Part shown: positions 6,527-12,392 of the stretch, in pieces | Layout: the number at the start of each line of letters is the position of its first letter | Position numbering within the stretch: position 1 is the first letter of the stretch | Source of the DNA: a virus | IMG/VR virus record: IMGVR_UViG_3300033995_000490 | Coordinates: 1-34,228 of that record | DNA length: 34,228 nt | Direction: 5' to 3' (one strand) | The notes under the pieces: model-generated | What the model was told of the DNA's origin: nothing | The model's input: only the letters and a program-made list of their open reading frames with translations | The model's database searches: none | Position numbers and translations under genes: made by a program

Positions 6527-6735
6527 ATGTAGTAGGAAGAAACCAATAATAAAGCGATGTTCTAGAAAAACGAAAAAAAATAATTTCAAAAAAATAATTT
6601 CATCACTCATTATAATATATACACTTTCTTCCTACTACATCCTACTACAAGTGCTGAAAGCCACAGCCACACTAAGAAAAAGTGTAGTAGGAAGAAAAAA
6701 TTTTACCCTACTACATCCTACTACATCCTACTACA
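6472..6735. other. ori: Candidate replication origin: eight iterons and an AT-rich segment
   Basis: The decamer TCCTACTACA occurs on the + strand at 6472, 6630, 6640, 6716 and 6726, with a one-base variant (CCCTACTACA) at 6706. It occurs inverted at 6528-6537 and 6683-6692. ATGTAGTAGGAAGAAA at 6527-6542 and its exact complement at 6625-6640 form a 16-bp inverted repeat around a very AT-rich stretch (about 6552-6624) that could melt easily. The cluster fills the only gap (6527-6738) between primase-helicase and helicase genes. Iterons plus an AT-rich unwinding region beside initiator genes are the classic layout of a phage or plasmid origin. Confidence 0.7.
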
Positions 6736-6738
6736 CGC

Positions 6739-8190
6739 ATGATAAACCTAAGACCATACCAACACGAATCAATTAAACAACTCCGCGAAGGGTTCAAGTC
6801 AGCACGTAGGCAAGTTTTATGCTTGCCAACTGGCGCGGGCAAAACGGTTGTGTTTTCCGAAATGGCTCGACTTGCTGCATCTAAGGGGACTCAAACGCTG
6901 GTCTTAACTGATAGGCTTGAACTATTTGACCAAACATTTAAGAGCCTTTCGAGGGTAGGCATAATTTGCCAACGTATCGAAGCAAAGGGTAATAAGCGAT
7001 TTGATACCCGAGCGATGGTAAGCGTTGGAATGGTTGAAACCGTTAAGCGAAGATTTGCGAAAGGAATAATGGAGGGGTTTGAGCCTAAGTTAATCGTTAT
7101 TGATGAAGCGCATAAGGGCAACTTTAACGCAATACTTGAAGCGTGGCCGAATGCTATGGTAATTGGTGCAACGGCAACCCCAGTAGGCAAACACTTTTAC
7201 AAGTACTATTCGAGCATTGTTCAAAACATCGACATACCCGAACTAATTGAACAAGGGTTTTTGATGCCTTGCAAACCTTACCAAATGCAAGATGATTTAA
7301 GTGACCTCAAAACAGTAGCGGGGGAATATACCGATGACAGTCTTTATAGTCACTTTAACTCACAACGTTTATTCGATGGCGTTATTTCAGAATGGCAAAA
7401 GCTGGCCAAAGGAAAAAAGACGTTAGTGTTTAACGTTAACATCCAACACGCAAATAATATGACAAAGGCGTTTAACGATGCTGGCATATTTTCGGAGTGC
7501 GTTACAAGCGAAACATCAAAGGAAGATAGATCGCGTATTTTGAGGGCGTTTTCGATGGGGTTAATTCCTGTTCTAAACAATTGCGGAATACTTACAACGG
7601 GCTACGATGAACCAAGCATCGAATGTATAATTATGAATCGGGCAACTAAAAGCCTACCGTTGTGGCTGCAATGTTGCGGACGAGGTTCGAGGTTATGCGA
7701 TGAAATTGGTAAGGAGCAGTTTATCGTTTTGGATTTTGGGCTAAACCATAACGAGCATGGAATGTGGAGCGAAGCCCGAAAGTGGCAAATTGCACCACCA
7801 AAGAAAAAAAAGAAGATGGAAGCCGCACCCGTAAAAGAATGCCCAAAGTGTAACGCCTTGGTGTTTGCATCTGCTCGAACTTGCCGCTATTGTGAACACG
7901 TTTTTCCATTTGAAGCTAAGGAATTAAGTCAGGGCAGTATGGTTGAAATCGGGGTGCGTGTTCCTGTTCAATTGGAAGGCCGAAAGATTAGCAGCCTTAG
8001 TATAGACGAATTGATTATTTTGGAACACTCAAAGGCTTACAAGGCATCGTTTATATGGCGTGTAATTAGAAGCAAGGGAAAAGAAACGATAAGAGAATAC
8101 GCGGCCAAAAAAAAGCATTCAAGTGGCTGGGCATGGCGGCAAGAAAAGGACATAGATAATTCATCATTCAAAGATTACATACTAAAATGA
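6739..8190 (+). CDS. SF2 DEAH-box helicase with C-terminal zinc finger, 483 aa
   Basis: ATP-dependent DNA helicase of the superfamily 2 type found beside phage replication genes. Motifs run in order: RPYQ at 5-8, Walker A P30-TGAGKT36, DEAH at 122-125, the motif III-type GATATP just after, the C-terminal RecA-like domain with TTGYDEP, and motif VI QCCGRGSR at 311-318 with the arginine finger. A four-cysteine zinc finger follows (C368-x2-C371-x10-C382-x2-C385) and then a basic tail. The ATG is four bases past the last iteron, so ribosome access and origin function may be coupled. Confidence 0.93.
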   Translation: MINLRPYQHESIKQLREGFKSARRQVLCLPTGAGKTVVFSEMARLAASKGTQTLVLTDRLELFDQTFKSLSRVGIICQRIEAKGNKRFDTRAMVSVGMVETVKRRFAKGIMEGFEPKLIVIDEAHKGNFNAILEAWPNAMVIGATATPVGKHFYKYYSSIVQNIDIPELIEQGFLMPCKPYQMQDDLSDLKTVAGEYTDDSLYSHFNSQRLFDGVISEWQKLAKGKKTLVFNVNIQHANNMTKAFNDAGIFSECVTSETSKEDRSRILRAFSMGLIPVLNNCGILTTGYDEPSIECIIMNRATKSLPLWLQCCGRGSRLCDEIGKEQFIVLDFGLNHNEHGMWSEARKWQIAPPKKKKKMEAAPVKECPKCNALVFASARTCRYCEHVFPFEAKELSQGSMVEIGVRVPVQLEGRKISSLSIDELIILEHSKAYKASFIWRVIRSKGKETIREYAAKKKHSSGWAWRQEKDIDNSSFKDYILK

Positions 8191-10055: not shown

Positions 10056-10574
10056 ATGAAAACAGAAACTGTAAAAATATCGGAGGTTAAAAGCAACCCC
10101 AACAACCCAAGAATTATCAAAGACGATAAGTTCAAGAAGCTTGTTGAATCTGTTAAGACGTTTCCTGAAATGCTAAACATTCGCCCTATTGTAGTAAATA
10201 GCGACATGGTGGTGCTTGGTGGTAATATGCGGTTACGTGCTTGTAAAGAAGCTGGTTTGAAGGAAATACCGATAATCAAAGCCGACACGTTAACGCCCGA
10301 ACAGCAAAGCGAGTTTATCATTAAAGACAACGTAAGCGGTGGAGAATGGGATTGGGATATGCTTGCGAATGAATGGAACGCGGAGGAGTTGGATGCGTGG
10401 GGGTTGGATGTGCCTGTTTTCGCTGGCGAGGACGAGGGCAACTTTGATGATGAGGGTATAGACGGAAAAAGCCAGTACGGGGTGATTGTAATGTGCGAAA
10501 GCGAGGGTAACCAAGAAAGCGTTTTTAGGGATTTACAGGGTATGGGTTACGAGTGTAAAGTTGTCGTTACATGA
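10056..10574 (+). CDS. ParB-like N-terminal domain protein, 172 aa
   Basis: Carries the ParB/Srx fold signature: N14-PNNPR19 near the start and G55-GNMRLRA62 with the conserved arginine, followed by IPIIKADTLTPEQQ. This domain can bind CTP, cut DNA or target DNA modification enzymes, depending on the family. Phage versions often sit beside DNA methylases or other base-modifying enzymes. Residues about 140-172 form a small C-terminal alpha/beta domain seen in phage ParB-like proteins (YGVIVMCESEGNQESV). It has no helix-turn-helix centromere-binding region, so plasmid-type partition is unlikely. Overlaps the ABC ATPase gene by four bases. Confidence 0.88.
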   Translation: MKTETVKISEVKSNPNNPRIIKDDKFKKLVESVKTFPEMLNIRPIVVNSDMVVLGGNMRLRACKEAGLKEIPIIKADTLTPEQQSEFIIKDNVSGGEWDWDMLANEWNAEELDAWGLDVPVFAGEDEGNFDDEGIDGKSQYGVIVMCESEGNQESVFRDLQGMGYECKVVVT

Positions 10575-11266
10575 TAATAAAAGTTAGGAATAAAACGGGG
10601 GAGTTTACGGGCTACAGGGCATCCCGAGTAAAAAGCCTATTTAACGCGGAGAGCGGGTCGGAGTTTAACCTCGATGCTAACCTACCAATCGAGGGAATGG
10701 ATTGGCAAATAGGGCTAATTGTGGGCGCAAGCGGAAGCGGTAAAACCTCAATCGGAAAAGCACTTTTTGGGGGCGGTAAAATTGTGGACTTATACGCTGG
10801 CTGGGATAACAACATCCCGATAGTTGAGGCAATAAGCCCCGATGGGGACTTTAACTCGGTTACGGGTTGCCTTGCAAATGTCGGGCTTGGTGACGTACCG
10901 AGTTGGCTTAGGCCGTTCAGCGCGTTAAGCAACGGGCAGCAGTTTAGGGCGGGGCTTGCAAGGCTTATATCCGATGCGCCTGATGAGGTTATCGTGGATG
11001 AGTTCACCTCCGTAATTGATAGGCAAATTGCTAAAATAGGCGCGATGGCTTTTGCTAAGGGGTGGCGAAGGAATAAAGGTAAAAAGGTCGTTTTGCTTGC
11101 GTGTCACTATGATATTATCGAATGGCTACAGCCCGATTGGGTATTTGATACGGGAACGGGCGAACTAAAAAAAGGGAACAGCTCGAGCCAAGACCAAGCT
11201 TCGAGTTGGAAATTCGGAAGGTCAACCAATCTTACTGGCGATATTTTAAGCCGCATTACTATTTAG
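10571..11266 (+). CDS. ABC-type ATPase, zero-frame product (231 aa) of a predicted frameshift fusion
   Basis: A soluble ABC ATPase with all motifs in place: Walker A G52-ASGSGKTS60, signature L119-SNGQQ124, Walker B V140-IVDE144 and the H-loop H179 (LACHYDIIEW). No membrane partner is encoded, so it is not a transporter. In known relatives the ATPase continues into a Mom-like GNAT domain in one chain. Here the zero frame instead ends with about 30 low-complexity residues (from GNSSSQDQASS) after the A7 run at 11167-11173, which look like non-conserved read-on. A -1 slip there would give a 371-residue ATPase-GNAT fusion. Confidence 0.9.
   Translation: MIIKVRNKTGEFTGYRASRVKSLFNAESGSEFNLDANLPIEGMDWQIGLIVGASGSGKTSIGKALFGGGKIVDLYAGWDNNIPIVEAISPDGDFNSVTGCLANVGLGDVPSWLRPFSALSNGQQFRAGLARLISDAPDEVIVDEFTSVIDRQIAKIGAMAFAKGWRRNKGKKVVLLACHYDIIEWLQPDWVFDTGTGELKKGNSSSQDQASSWKFGRSTNLTGDILSRITI
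11167..11208 (+). promoter_or_regulatory. Programmed -1 ribosomal frameshift signal
   Basis: The zero-frame codons are CTA-AAA-AAA-GGG, so 11167-11173 is an in-frame A-AAA-AAA slippery heptamer. Five bases later a stem pairs CAGCTCGAG (11179-11187) with TTCGAGTTG (11200-11208): nine pairs, two of them wobbles, with a 12-nt loop. Heptamer, short spacer and stem-loop form the standard -1 signal. After slipping, translation continues as AGG-GAA-CAG into the GNAT frame, which has no ATG before 11275. Confidence 0.8.
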
Positions 11267-11685
11267 ATTTACCCATGCCCCCAGCGGCAGAGTACTTTAT
11301 CGGTACGGTTGACGGTGAGTTGGTTTGTCATTTAGCGGTTGGTTGTATGTTTCAAAACGATGCCTACAGGGCAACAAGATTGGTGGTTATGCCCGAATGG
11401 CAAGGCGCGGGGGTCGGAACAAGGTTTTTGGAGTACGTGGCCGAATACCATAAAAAAGGCTTAGGCCGATGCGCCAAAAAATTACCGTGCATGTTTCATA
11501 CATCGCATCCACAACTAATCGGATATTTACAAAAATCAAAAAAATGGGTACTAAAAAGCCAGCAATTACACGGTAACAAATCAAGAATTAAAATGCAAAT
11601 CGGTTCGCCATCTGGGGGAACTAAAAAATTTATGGGCGGCCACTTTCGGGCGGTGCAAGGCTTCAAGTACATAGGCGATAAATGA
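11173..11685 (+). CDS. Mom-like GNAT acyltransferase domain, reached by -1 frameshift
   Basis: The frame contributes 170 residues after the slip, beginning REQLEPRPSFELEIRKV and continuing with a tryptophan and the FKPHYYL motif. This is the linker and first strand of the GNAT half of ABC-GNAT fusions as I recall them. The acyl-CoA loop is present (VVMPEWQGAGVG), as is the Mom-type HTSHPQLI segment with a following tryptophan. The phage Mu Mom protein, a GNAT relative, modifies adenines in DNA. The only stand-alone starts are a TTG at 11206 or an ATG at 11275 that would delete the conserved N-terminus, so expression as a fusion is much more likely. Confidence 0.82.
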   Translation, partial: REQLEPRPSFELEIRKVNQSYWRYFKPHYYLDLPMPPAAEYFIGTVDGELVCHLAVGCMFQNDAYRATRLVVMPEWQGAGVGTRFLEYVAEYHKKGLGRCAKKLPCMFHTSHPQLIGYLQKSKKWVLKSQQLHGNKSRIKMQIGSPSGGTKKFMGGHFRAVQGFKYIGDK

Positions 11686-12392
11686 CGCACGAATTTTACC
11701 AAGACGAGAAAAAGCTGCGGGTTTTTATTAGCGGTCAAAAGTATTTTGGGGGGCTAATACTCCGAGAGATGCTAAAGAACCCGCTCGTTGACGTGGTAGG
11801 CGTTTGCTGCCCATTAGACGACACGCATATTGGAAAGGCCGCAGTACTTAACGGGATACCAATGGTGGCGGCTGGGTCGCTTAACGTGGATACAATGCCC
11901 GAAAACGTGGACTTGGGTATCACCGCACATTCATTTGATTACATAGGCAAGAAAACGCGTTACAAGGCGAAACTTGGATGGATTGGATACCACCCGAGCC
12001 TATTACCAAGACATAGAGGGCGCTCGTCTATTGAGTGGGCAATAAAGATGCACGACTTTGTAACAGGCGGCACAACCTTTTGGCTTAACTCGGGTATTGA
12101 TAGGGGCGACATAATTGCACAGGAGGTTGTATGGATAGACCCGAAGCTATTTAGCGTGGACGTAAAAAAGGCGGCTAAGGCGTTATGGGAGGGCGAACTT
12201 CAAGACGTAGGCGTTAGGCTTATTAATCAAACGGTGGCCGACATAATCGCTGGGCGTGGCAAAAGAACACCCCAACAAAATAAATTTAGTACCTTTGAGC
12301 CGAGCCTAAAAGTTAACGACATTTACCGCCCAGATGCGCTAATGATTGAACATAGGCCATCGGATAAAACAGCGAACTTACAGCGTGGCTAA
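11682..12392 (+). CDS. Formyltransferase-fold enzyme with altered catalytic triad, 236 aa
   Basis: The Rossmann-like fold of PurN/Fmt-type formyltransferases is recognisable: an initial strand (LRVFISGQKYFGG), the loop H104-PSLLPRHRG, then GGTTFWLNSGI and D140-RGDI. H104 and D140 are 36 residues apart, as for H108 and D144 in PurN. The triad asparagine expected two residues before the histidine is a glycine (G102-Y-H104). So the usual formyl transfer from 10-formyl-THF may be lost, changed or use another residue. The gene overlaps the GNAT frame (ATGA), suggesting it acts in the same pathway, perhaps on a modified base or its precursor. Host tRNA or sugar substrates cannot be excluded. Confidence 0.85.
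   Translation: MTHEFYQDEKKLRVFISGQKYFGGLILREMLKNPLVDVVGVCCPLDDTHIGKAAVLNGIPMVAAGSLNVDTMPENVDLGITAHSFDYIGKKTRYKAKLGWIGYHPSLLPRHRGRSSIEWAIKMHDFVTGGTTFWLNSGIDRGDIIAQEVVWIDPKLFSVDVKKAAKALWEGELQDVGVRLINQTVADIIAGRGKRTPQQNKFSTFEPSLKVNDIYRPDALMIEHRPSDKTANLQRG

Follow-up and report, generated by a model that had tools for sequence, protein, structure and literature searches.

The window analysed here is a stretch of 34,228 nucleotides from a virus (IMG/VR record IMGVR_UViG_3300033995_000490). It contains, in this order, genes for a ParB-N protein, an ATPase/GNAT pair and a formyltransferase-like protein, followed by the terminase (Table 1). The ATPase has the Walker A motif, the signature LSNGQ, the motif DEFTS and the H-loop CHYD, and carries a tail of 30 amino acids beyond a putative slip site. 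At this site a run of seven As (A7) is read in the ATPase frame as CTA AAA AAA GGG, with A_AAA_AAA in phase for a -1 shift. It is followed by a spacer and a stem of nine base pairs; a tenth pair (11188-11199) is formed in some relatives and is unpaired in the window. A -1 slip would yield a fusion protein of 371 amino acids (KKREQLEPRPSFELEIRKV...) that ends at 11685. The stop codon of the short product is made from the Leu codon of the HYYL motif of the GNAT domain together with the next base. The position and phase of the A7, the 5-nt spacer and the stem had been given exactly in the initial annotation, and recomputing the lengths of the two products gave the same values. The observation that the GNAT frame has no ATG upstream of 11275 was likewise correct; a TTG at 11206, in principle a possible GNAT start, had been overlooked.

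Table 1. Position of the genes and signals at the ATPase/GNAT locus of the window
Feature	Position	Strand	Basis or remark
ParB-N domain protein	10056..10574	+	4-base overlap (ATGA) with ATPase start
Short product, 231-aa ABC ATPase	10571..11266	+	ATG 10571; stop TAG 11264-11266
GNAT reading frame (-1)	11149..11685	+	open from stop at 11146 (TGA); fusion part from about 11173
Putative slippery heptamer A_AAA_AAA (A7)	11167..11173	+	A6-A11 at the same place in 75/82 -1-class relatives
Spacer GGGAA, 5 nt	11174..11178	+	sequence
5' arm of the putative stimulatory stem	11179..11187	+	fold; covariation
3' arm of the putative stimulatory stem	11200..11208	+	fold; covariation
TTG, sole standard start in the GNAT frame upstream of ATG 11275	11206..11208	+	unconserved
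HYYL motif (CAT TAC TAT TTA)	11254..11266	+	conserved in almost the whole family
Formyltransferase-like protein	11682..12392	+	4-base overlap (ATGA) with GNAT stop

The second domain belongs to the GNAT superfamily, since the profiles PF13508 (Acetyltransf_7, 29.6 bits, cut-off 27) and PF00583 (Acetyltransf_1, 23.6 bits, cut-off 20.7) match above their curated cut-offs. In addition, the unnamed phrog_11143 (357 positions) covers the ATPase (3-197) and the GNAT domain (199-351) in this order in one profile. The GNAT assignment of the initial annotation is thereby supported, but its label "Mom-like" has to be dropped: the domain matched neither the Pfam Mom family PF25680 nor phrog_1384, both of which are matched by Mu Mom, and hhalign against Mu Mom gave a probability of 0.7%, ruling out membership in the Mom family. 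Searching PDB sequences with the GNAT profile returned nothing. In the predicted structure of an in-frame relative (L005), the slip site is located in the linker that connects two well-folded domains, and a fold search with this model listed ordinary ABC nucleotide-binding domains and no ABC-GNAT structure among its best 50 matches. The prediction made for ABC-GNAT proteins probably goes back to Iyer et al. 2013. ATP-dependent acyl modification of a DNA base has been proposed by others for these proteins (PMC7824862), and this is likely to be the role of the enzyme encoded in the window.

Relatives with the GNAT domain in the -1 frame

Relatives were collected from viral contigs (using the joined protein as query and a GNAT alignment) and from bacterial genomes (using an ATPase alignment), resulting in 165 distinct junctions at first pass and 168 once reference phages were included. 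The -1 class was scored with 83 loci and contains 82 after removal of L159, a mis-scored in-frame locus. A run of A6-A11 is present in the linker of 75 of them, in phase where checked, and the other seven are Bacillota phages, several of which have U-runs. The A-run loci are found in genomes of Flavobacterium, Tenacibaculum, Chryseobacterium (one complete chromosome), Paenimyroides and Capnocytophaga and in environmental phages related to the window; the Chryseobacterium prophages in the data set have A9. Since several A-runs of at least seven are present in the 34-kb window, an A7 by itself is unremarkable and proves nothing; it is the conservation of its position that is remarkable. Further A8 runs (6573-6580, 7804-7811 and 8107-8114) are located within or close to coding sequence in the replication region. 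In streptococcal, lactococcal and related phages (L083, L085, L091, L226-L231, L233) the -1 relation occurs with U5-U9 runs, and GTTTTTCAA members among these U-run phages show an inverted repeat CCCCAC...GTGGGG across the overlap.

A search of related phages for a conserved A7 with a stem, as proposed in the initial annotation, was successful for ten close loci, in which the hairpin starts about 5 nt downstream of the A7. In these ten, 93% of the stem cells are paired, compared to 11-53% if one arm is slid, and six cells are changed on both sides compared to 1.9 in shuffles; for this sample of ten related sequences, the number of stem pairs with double changes was not above shuffles. Strong downstream structures are likewise present at the remaining A6-A7 loci, whereas the A9-A11 loci are mostly without a hairpin (median energy -12.6 kcal/mol for A6-7 versus -7.3 kcal/mol for A9-11, p=1.5e-7). 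With cassettes of another gene in E. coli, A11 gave a fusion fraction of 63%, A9 of 40% and A7 of 10%, and runs of 8 or more As are typical slippage sites (PMC3711429). These fractions fit a requirement for a stimulator at A7 and polymerase slippage at A9-A11. Thus, with strong hairpins at A6-7 and mostly none at A9-11, the A7 looks like a site of ribosomal frameshifting and A9-A11 like sites of transcriptional slippage.

The features by which -1 frameshifting is recognised are found together in the window: an in-phase X_XXY_YYZ heptamer, a potentially stimulatory structure at a distance of 5-8 nt downstream, and conservation of the site together with a conserved trans-frame product. The conserved A-run, the covarying stem and the unconserved GNAT start argue for the programmed -1 frameshift between ABC ATPase and GNAT domain that the initial annotation had put forward. 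Most ribosomes would reach the TAG at 11264 and release the short ATPase. Some would pause at the hairpin (11179-11208), the two tRNA-Lys on A_AAA_AAA would slip back by one base, and subsequent translation of the GNAT frame would generate the ATPase-acyltransferase of 371 amino acids.

It might also be that the fusion in this phage is generated by transcriptional slippage at the A7 instead of ribosomal frameshifting. This would be in line with the close A9-A11 relatives, which mostly lack hairpins and have runs in the range typical of slippage sites, and with dnaX, for which both routes are used (PMC3711429). However, seven As are few for slippage, the covarying hairpin about 5 nt downstream is retained in the ten close A7 relatives, and the efficiency of only 10% reported for A7 in the E. 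coli cassettes fits the need for a stimulator (PMC3711429), making this explanation unlikely. Five loci (L001, L076, L170, L190, L278) have odd A-run tracts that give another frame relation, representing either real tract variation or sequencing; for the A8, A11 and A12 runs of L001, L170, L190 and L278, sequencing error, decay and phase variation are options. Phase variation, in which changes of the A-run length during replication toggle between short and fused form, could be seen in L001, which has A11 in frame beside A10 relatives, and in the A8 of L190 and the A12 of L278. It is nevertheless very unlikely, since the vast majority of loci from A7 to A11 share one frame relation and since neither the stems nor the prfB-like class described below would be explained.

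Likewise highly improbable is the production of two separate proteins, with the GNAT domain started internally at TTG 11206 by coupled translation. The TTG does exist and a free GNAT domain might be made at a low level; an ATG occupies the corresponding position in Enterococcus phage 9184, and the GNATs of streptococcal phages are annotated separately by gene callers. But in most -1 relatives neither ATG nor GTG nor TTG occurs in the GNAT frame ahead of the conserved motifs, and the TTG is absent from five close A7 relatives (L029, L032, L033, L035, L037). Initiation there would remove the conserved RPxFE, and the ten A7-type relatives share an invariant RPxFELEIRKV at or upstream of any start. 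The missing starts and the conserved upstream residues rule out internal initiation as the rule of the family, and it would leave A-run and stem unexplained. An artefact of sequencing or a fusion gene that broke recently, with a true count of six or eight As, has a negligible probability: homopolymer errors are common and five relatives have odd tract lengths, but the count of seven, which the initial annotation had wanted checked, is shared by L022 and L023 (contigs identical at the protein level), L025 and seven more diverged relatives, making an isolated homopolymer error very unlikely, the A-run recurs in related -1 lineages including isolate genomes and the complete Chryseobacterium chromosome, and both frames are constrained, so that error and pseudogene are ruled out by independent contigs and lineages.

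In-frame relatives and the putative +1 site

In the initial annotation, in-frame ABC-GNAT proteins were taken as yardstick for a plain fusion. This view does not hold, since nearly all of them have a +1 signal predicted to yield a short ATPase as well. For 79 in-frame loci, a stop in the +1 frame relative to the fusion falls within HYYL, at exactly the position of the -1-class stop, and is preceded by at least 26-28 open codons. Most of these open stretches begin at a prfB/Ty1-like site composed of SD-like purines, three bases, CTT (CCC or CAT in some members), CGG/AGG/TGG/CAA and a C, with forms such as [A/C]GGAGG-NNN-CTT-TGG-C and CTT-AGG-C. Counting representatives below 80-85% identity as independent, the +1 frame was open to the conserved stop in 39 of 39 in-frame representatives, compared to 8.0 expected from synonymous shuffles. 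A separate clade, fetched later with the protein of Pasteurella phage Pmp13, served as independent test set and gave 29 of 29 compared to 4.2 expected. Here, 23 of the 29 members have [A/C]GGAGG-NNN-CTT followed by a TGG/TGT/CGG/CGA/CAA/AGG codon and a C, and four have U10 instead of the prfB-like site. The run of ten Ts that replaces this site at the junction of the in-frame Pmp13 relatives L266, L268, L271 and L272 suggests that their short form is made by transcriptional slippage.

The HYYL column contains a +1 stop in all 54 in-frame representatives, and none is present in the 26 columns upstream. The frequency of +1 stops in these representatives is at most 0.56 in other internal columns and 0.96 at the gene start, a value most likely resulting from the stop of the upstream gene in the ATGA overlap. 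The P-site Leu is encoded by CTT in 31 of 32 cases (background about 26%), and the base following the A-site codon is a C in 53 of the 54 representatives. Codon identity is higher in the overlap than in the rest of the gene in both frame classes (0.57 and 0.71 versus 0.31-0.37, p=0.014 and 4e-5), and both frames are under selection. Slippage itself is predicted from this conserved architecture. As is typical of the prfB/Ty1 type, the site motif occurs together with a +1 frame open to a conserved stop. Simple single-product fusions are ruled out for the in-frame relatives by the open +1 frame, the conserved stop, the codon bias and the codon constraint. Pseudoalteromonas phage SL25 (L216) contains an ABC-GNAT gene (1201-2151) with AGGGGG-AGT-CTT-AGG-C that is unannotated in its record.

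Two probable products and the exchange of the putative recoding device

The stop of the short ATPase is found at the identical place inside the HYYL motif in 167 of 168 loci and is kept in distant phages of Leptospira, Arthrobacter, Vibrio, Nonlabens, Pasteurella, Pseudoalteromonas, Gordonia and Tenacibaculum. Aeromonas phage PX29 (L217, about 1789-1801) is the sole member found without this stop and also lacks the +1 site, so that the short form is not needed everywhere; as a natural constitutive fusion it is a useful control. With an open +1 frame and a conserved stop in the in-frame class, both products appear to be made throughout nearly the entire family, and each of them can be the default. 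We consider it very likely that one start gives two proteins in the window, the 231-aa ATPase and by a -1 slip the 371-aa fusion, and that this dual output is a conserved trait of the family. A set ratio between the two, as proposed in the initial annotation, is plausible, and a fixed ratio might serve ABC dimers that mix short and long chains.

The routes to these products would differ between lineages. The -1 lineages would use A7 with a hairpin (ribosomal), A9-A11 without a hairpin (probably RNA polymerase slippage) or U-runs, and in the in-frame lineages a prfB/Ty1-like +1 site would send some ribosomes into the short-ATPase frame with its conserved stop. Six changes of the in-frame/+1 label have to be assumed on the tree, of which at least four are forced by well-supported branches, the exact number being uncertain with such long branches; the recoding device has thus been exchanged repeatedly. 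Outside the Bacteroidota clade, 72% of the in-frame members have an SD-like element (score of at least 4), compared to none of the 18 inside. This matches the occlusion of the anti-SD in ribosomes of Bacteroidia, and the prfB frameshift is absent in Weeksellaceae (PMC8710568). The device appears to follow the biology of the host ribosome, lacking SD-like elements where the anti-SD is occluded. It is likely that the pair of products has stayed fixed while the device (+1 prfB/Ty1, A7 with hairpin, A9-A11, U7-U10) was replaced repeatedly in step with the host ribosome, changing direction and flipping the default product. In Tenacibaculum phage pT24 (L219), the GNAT frame contains an in-frame TGA (about 1925) where relatives have a sense codon; the gene is annotated in two pieces, and the TGA may be recoded or the gene broken.

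Comparison with known recoding systems

Recoding is known from release factors, dnaX, transposases and phage structural genes; here, it would govern an enzyme predicted to modify DNA bases. For the ABC-GNAT family no report of recoding was found in the open-access literature covered by the search, in agreement with the initial annotation, which knew of no such description. This recoding appears to be present, but unrecognised, in hundreds of phage and prophage genomes, and annotation presents in-frame members as one protein and shifted members as two truncated proteins. Biochemical work on ABC-GNAT proteins should therefore take in the short form. The family can be viewed as a natural experiment: two products with fixed ends are retained as its output, and the mechanism changes. 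It permits direct tests of why polymerase slippage, hairpin-driven -1 and SD-driven +1 frameshifting replace each other and of how anti-SD occlusion in Bacteroidia reshapes recoding.

A close parallel to the gene in the window is dnaX (tau/gamma), a single ATPase gene that gives a short and a long form with an A-rich slippery site and a hairpin, by a ribosomal route in E. coli and by polymerase slippage in Thermus (PMC3711429). Unlike dnaX, the gene described here is from a phage and adds a GNAT acyltransferase; +1 versions also exist in the family, and the unshifted product varies among lineages. The in-frame relatives resemble prfB (release factor 2) in having an SD-like sequence, a gap of 3 nt, CTT and a slow codon: CGGAGG-NNN-CTT-TGG-C compares with AGGAGG-TAT-CTT-TGA-C in F. 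johnsoniae prfB (PMC8710568). In contrast to prfB, they have a sense codon (CGG, AGG, TGG, CAA) in the A-site and would obtain the shorter product by the shift, whereas in prfB the longer one is rescued. The heptamer CUU_AGG_C of Ty1 is identical in L005, L107, VmeM32 and SL25, with GGC as the +1 codon; unlike Ty1, these are bacterial phages, and many members have an SD-like stimulator.

Genes of magnesium chelatase also show a -1 relation with A7, A9 or A11 and in-frame fusions elsewhere (PMC3711429), but neither a +1 counterpart nor a hairpin rule, as in the ABC-GNAT family, was found described for them. In the Ig-like extensions of phage coat proteins, +1 and -1 shifts are interchangeable between related phages (PMC5009743), as they seem to be here. 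Those extensions are structural decoration, whereas the ABC-GNAT protein is an enzyme, for which the default product appears to flip as well.
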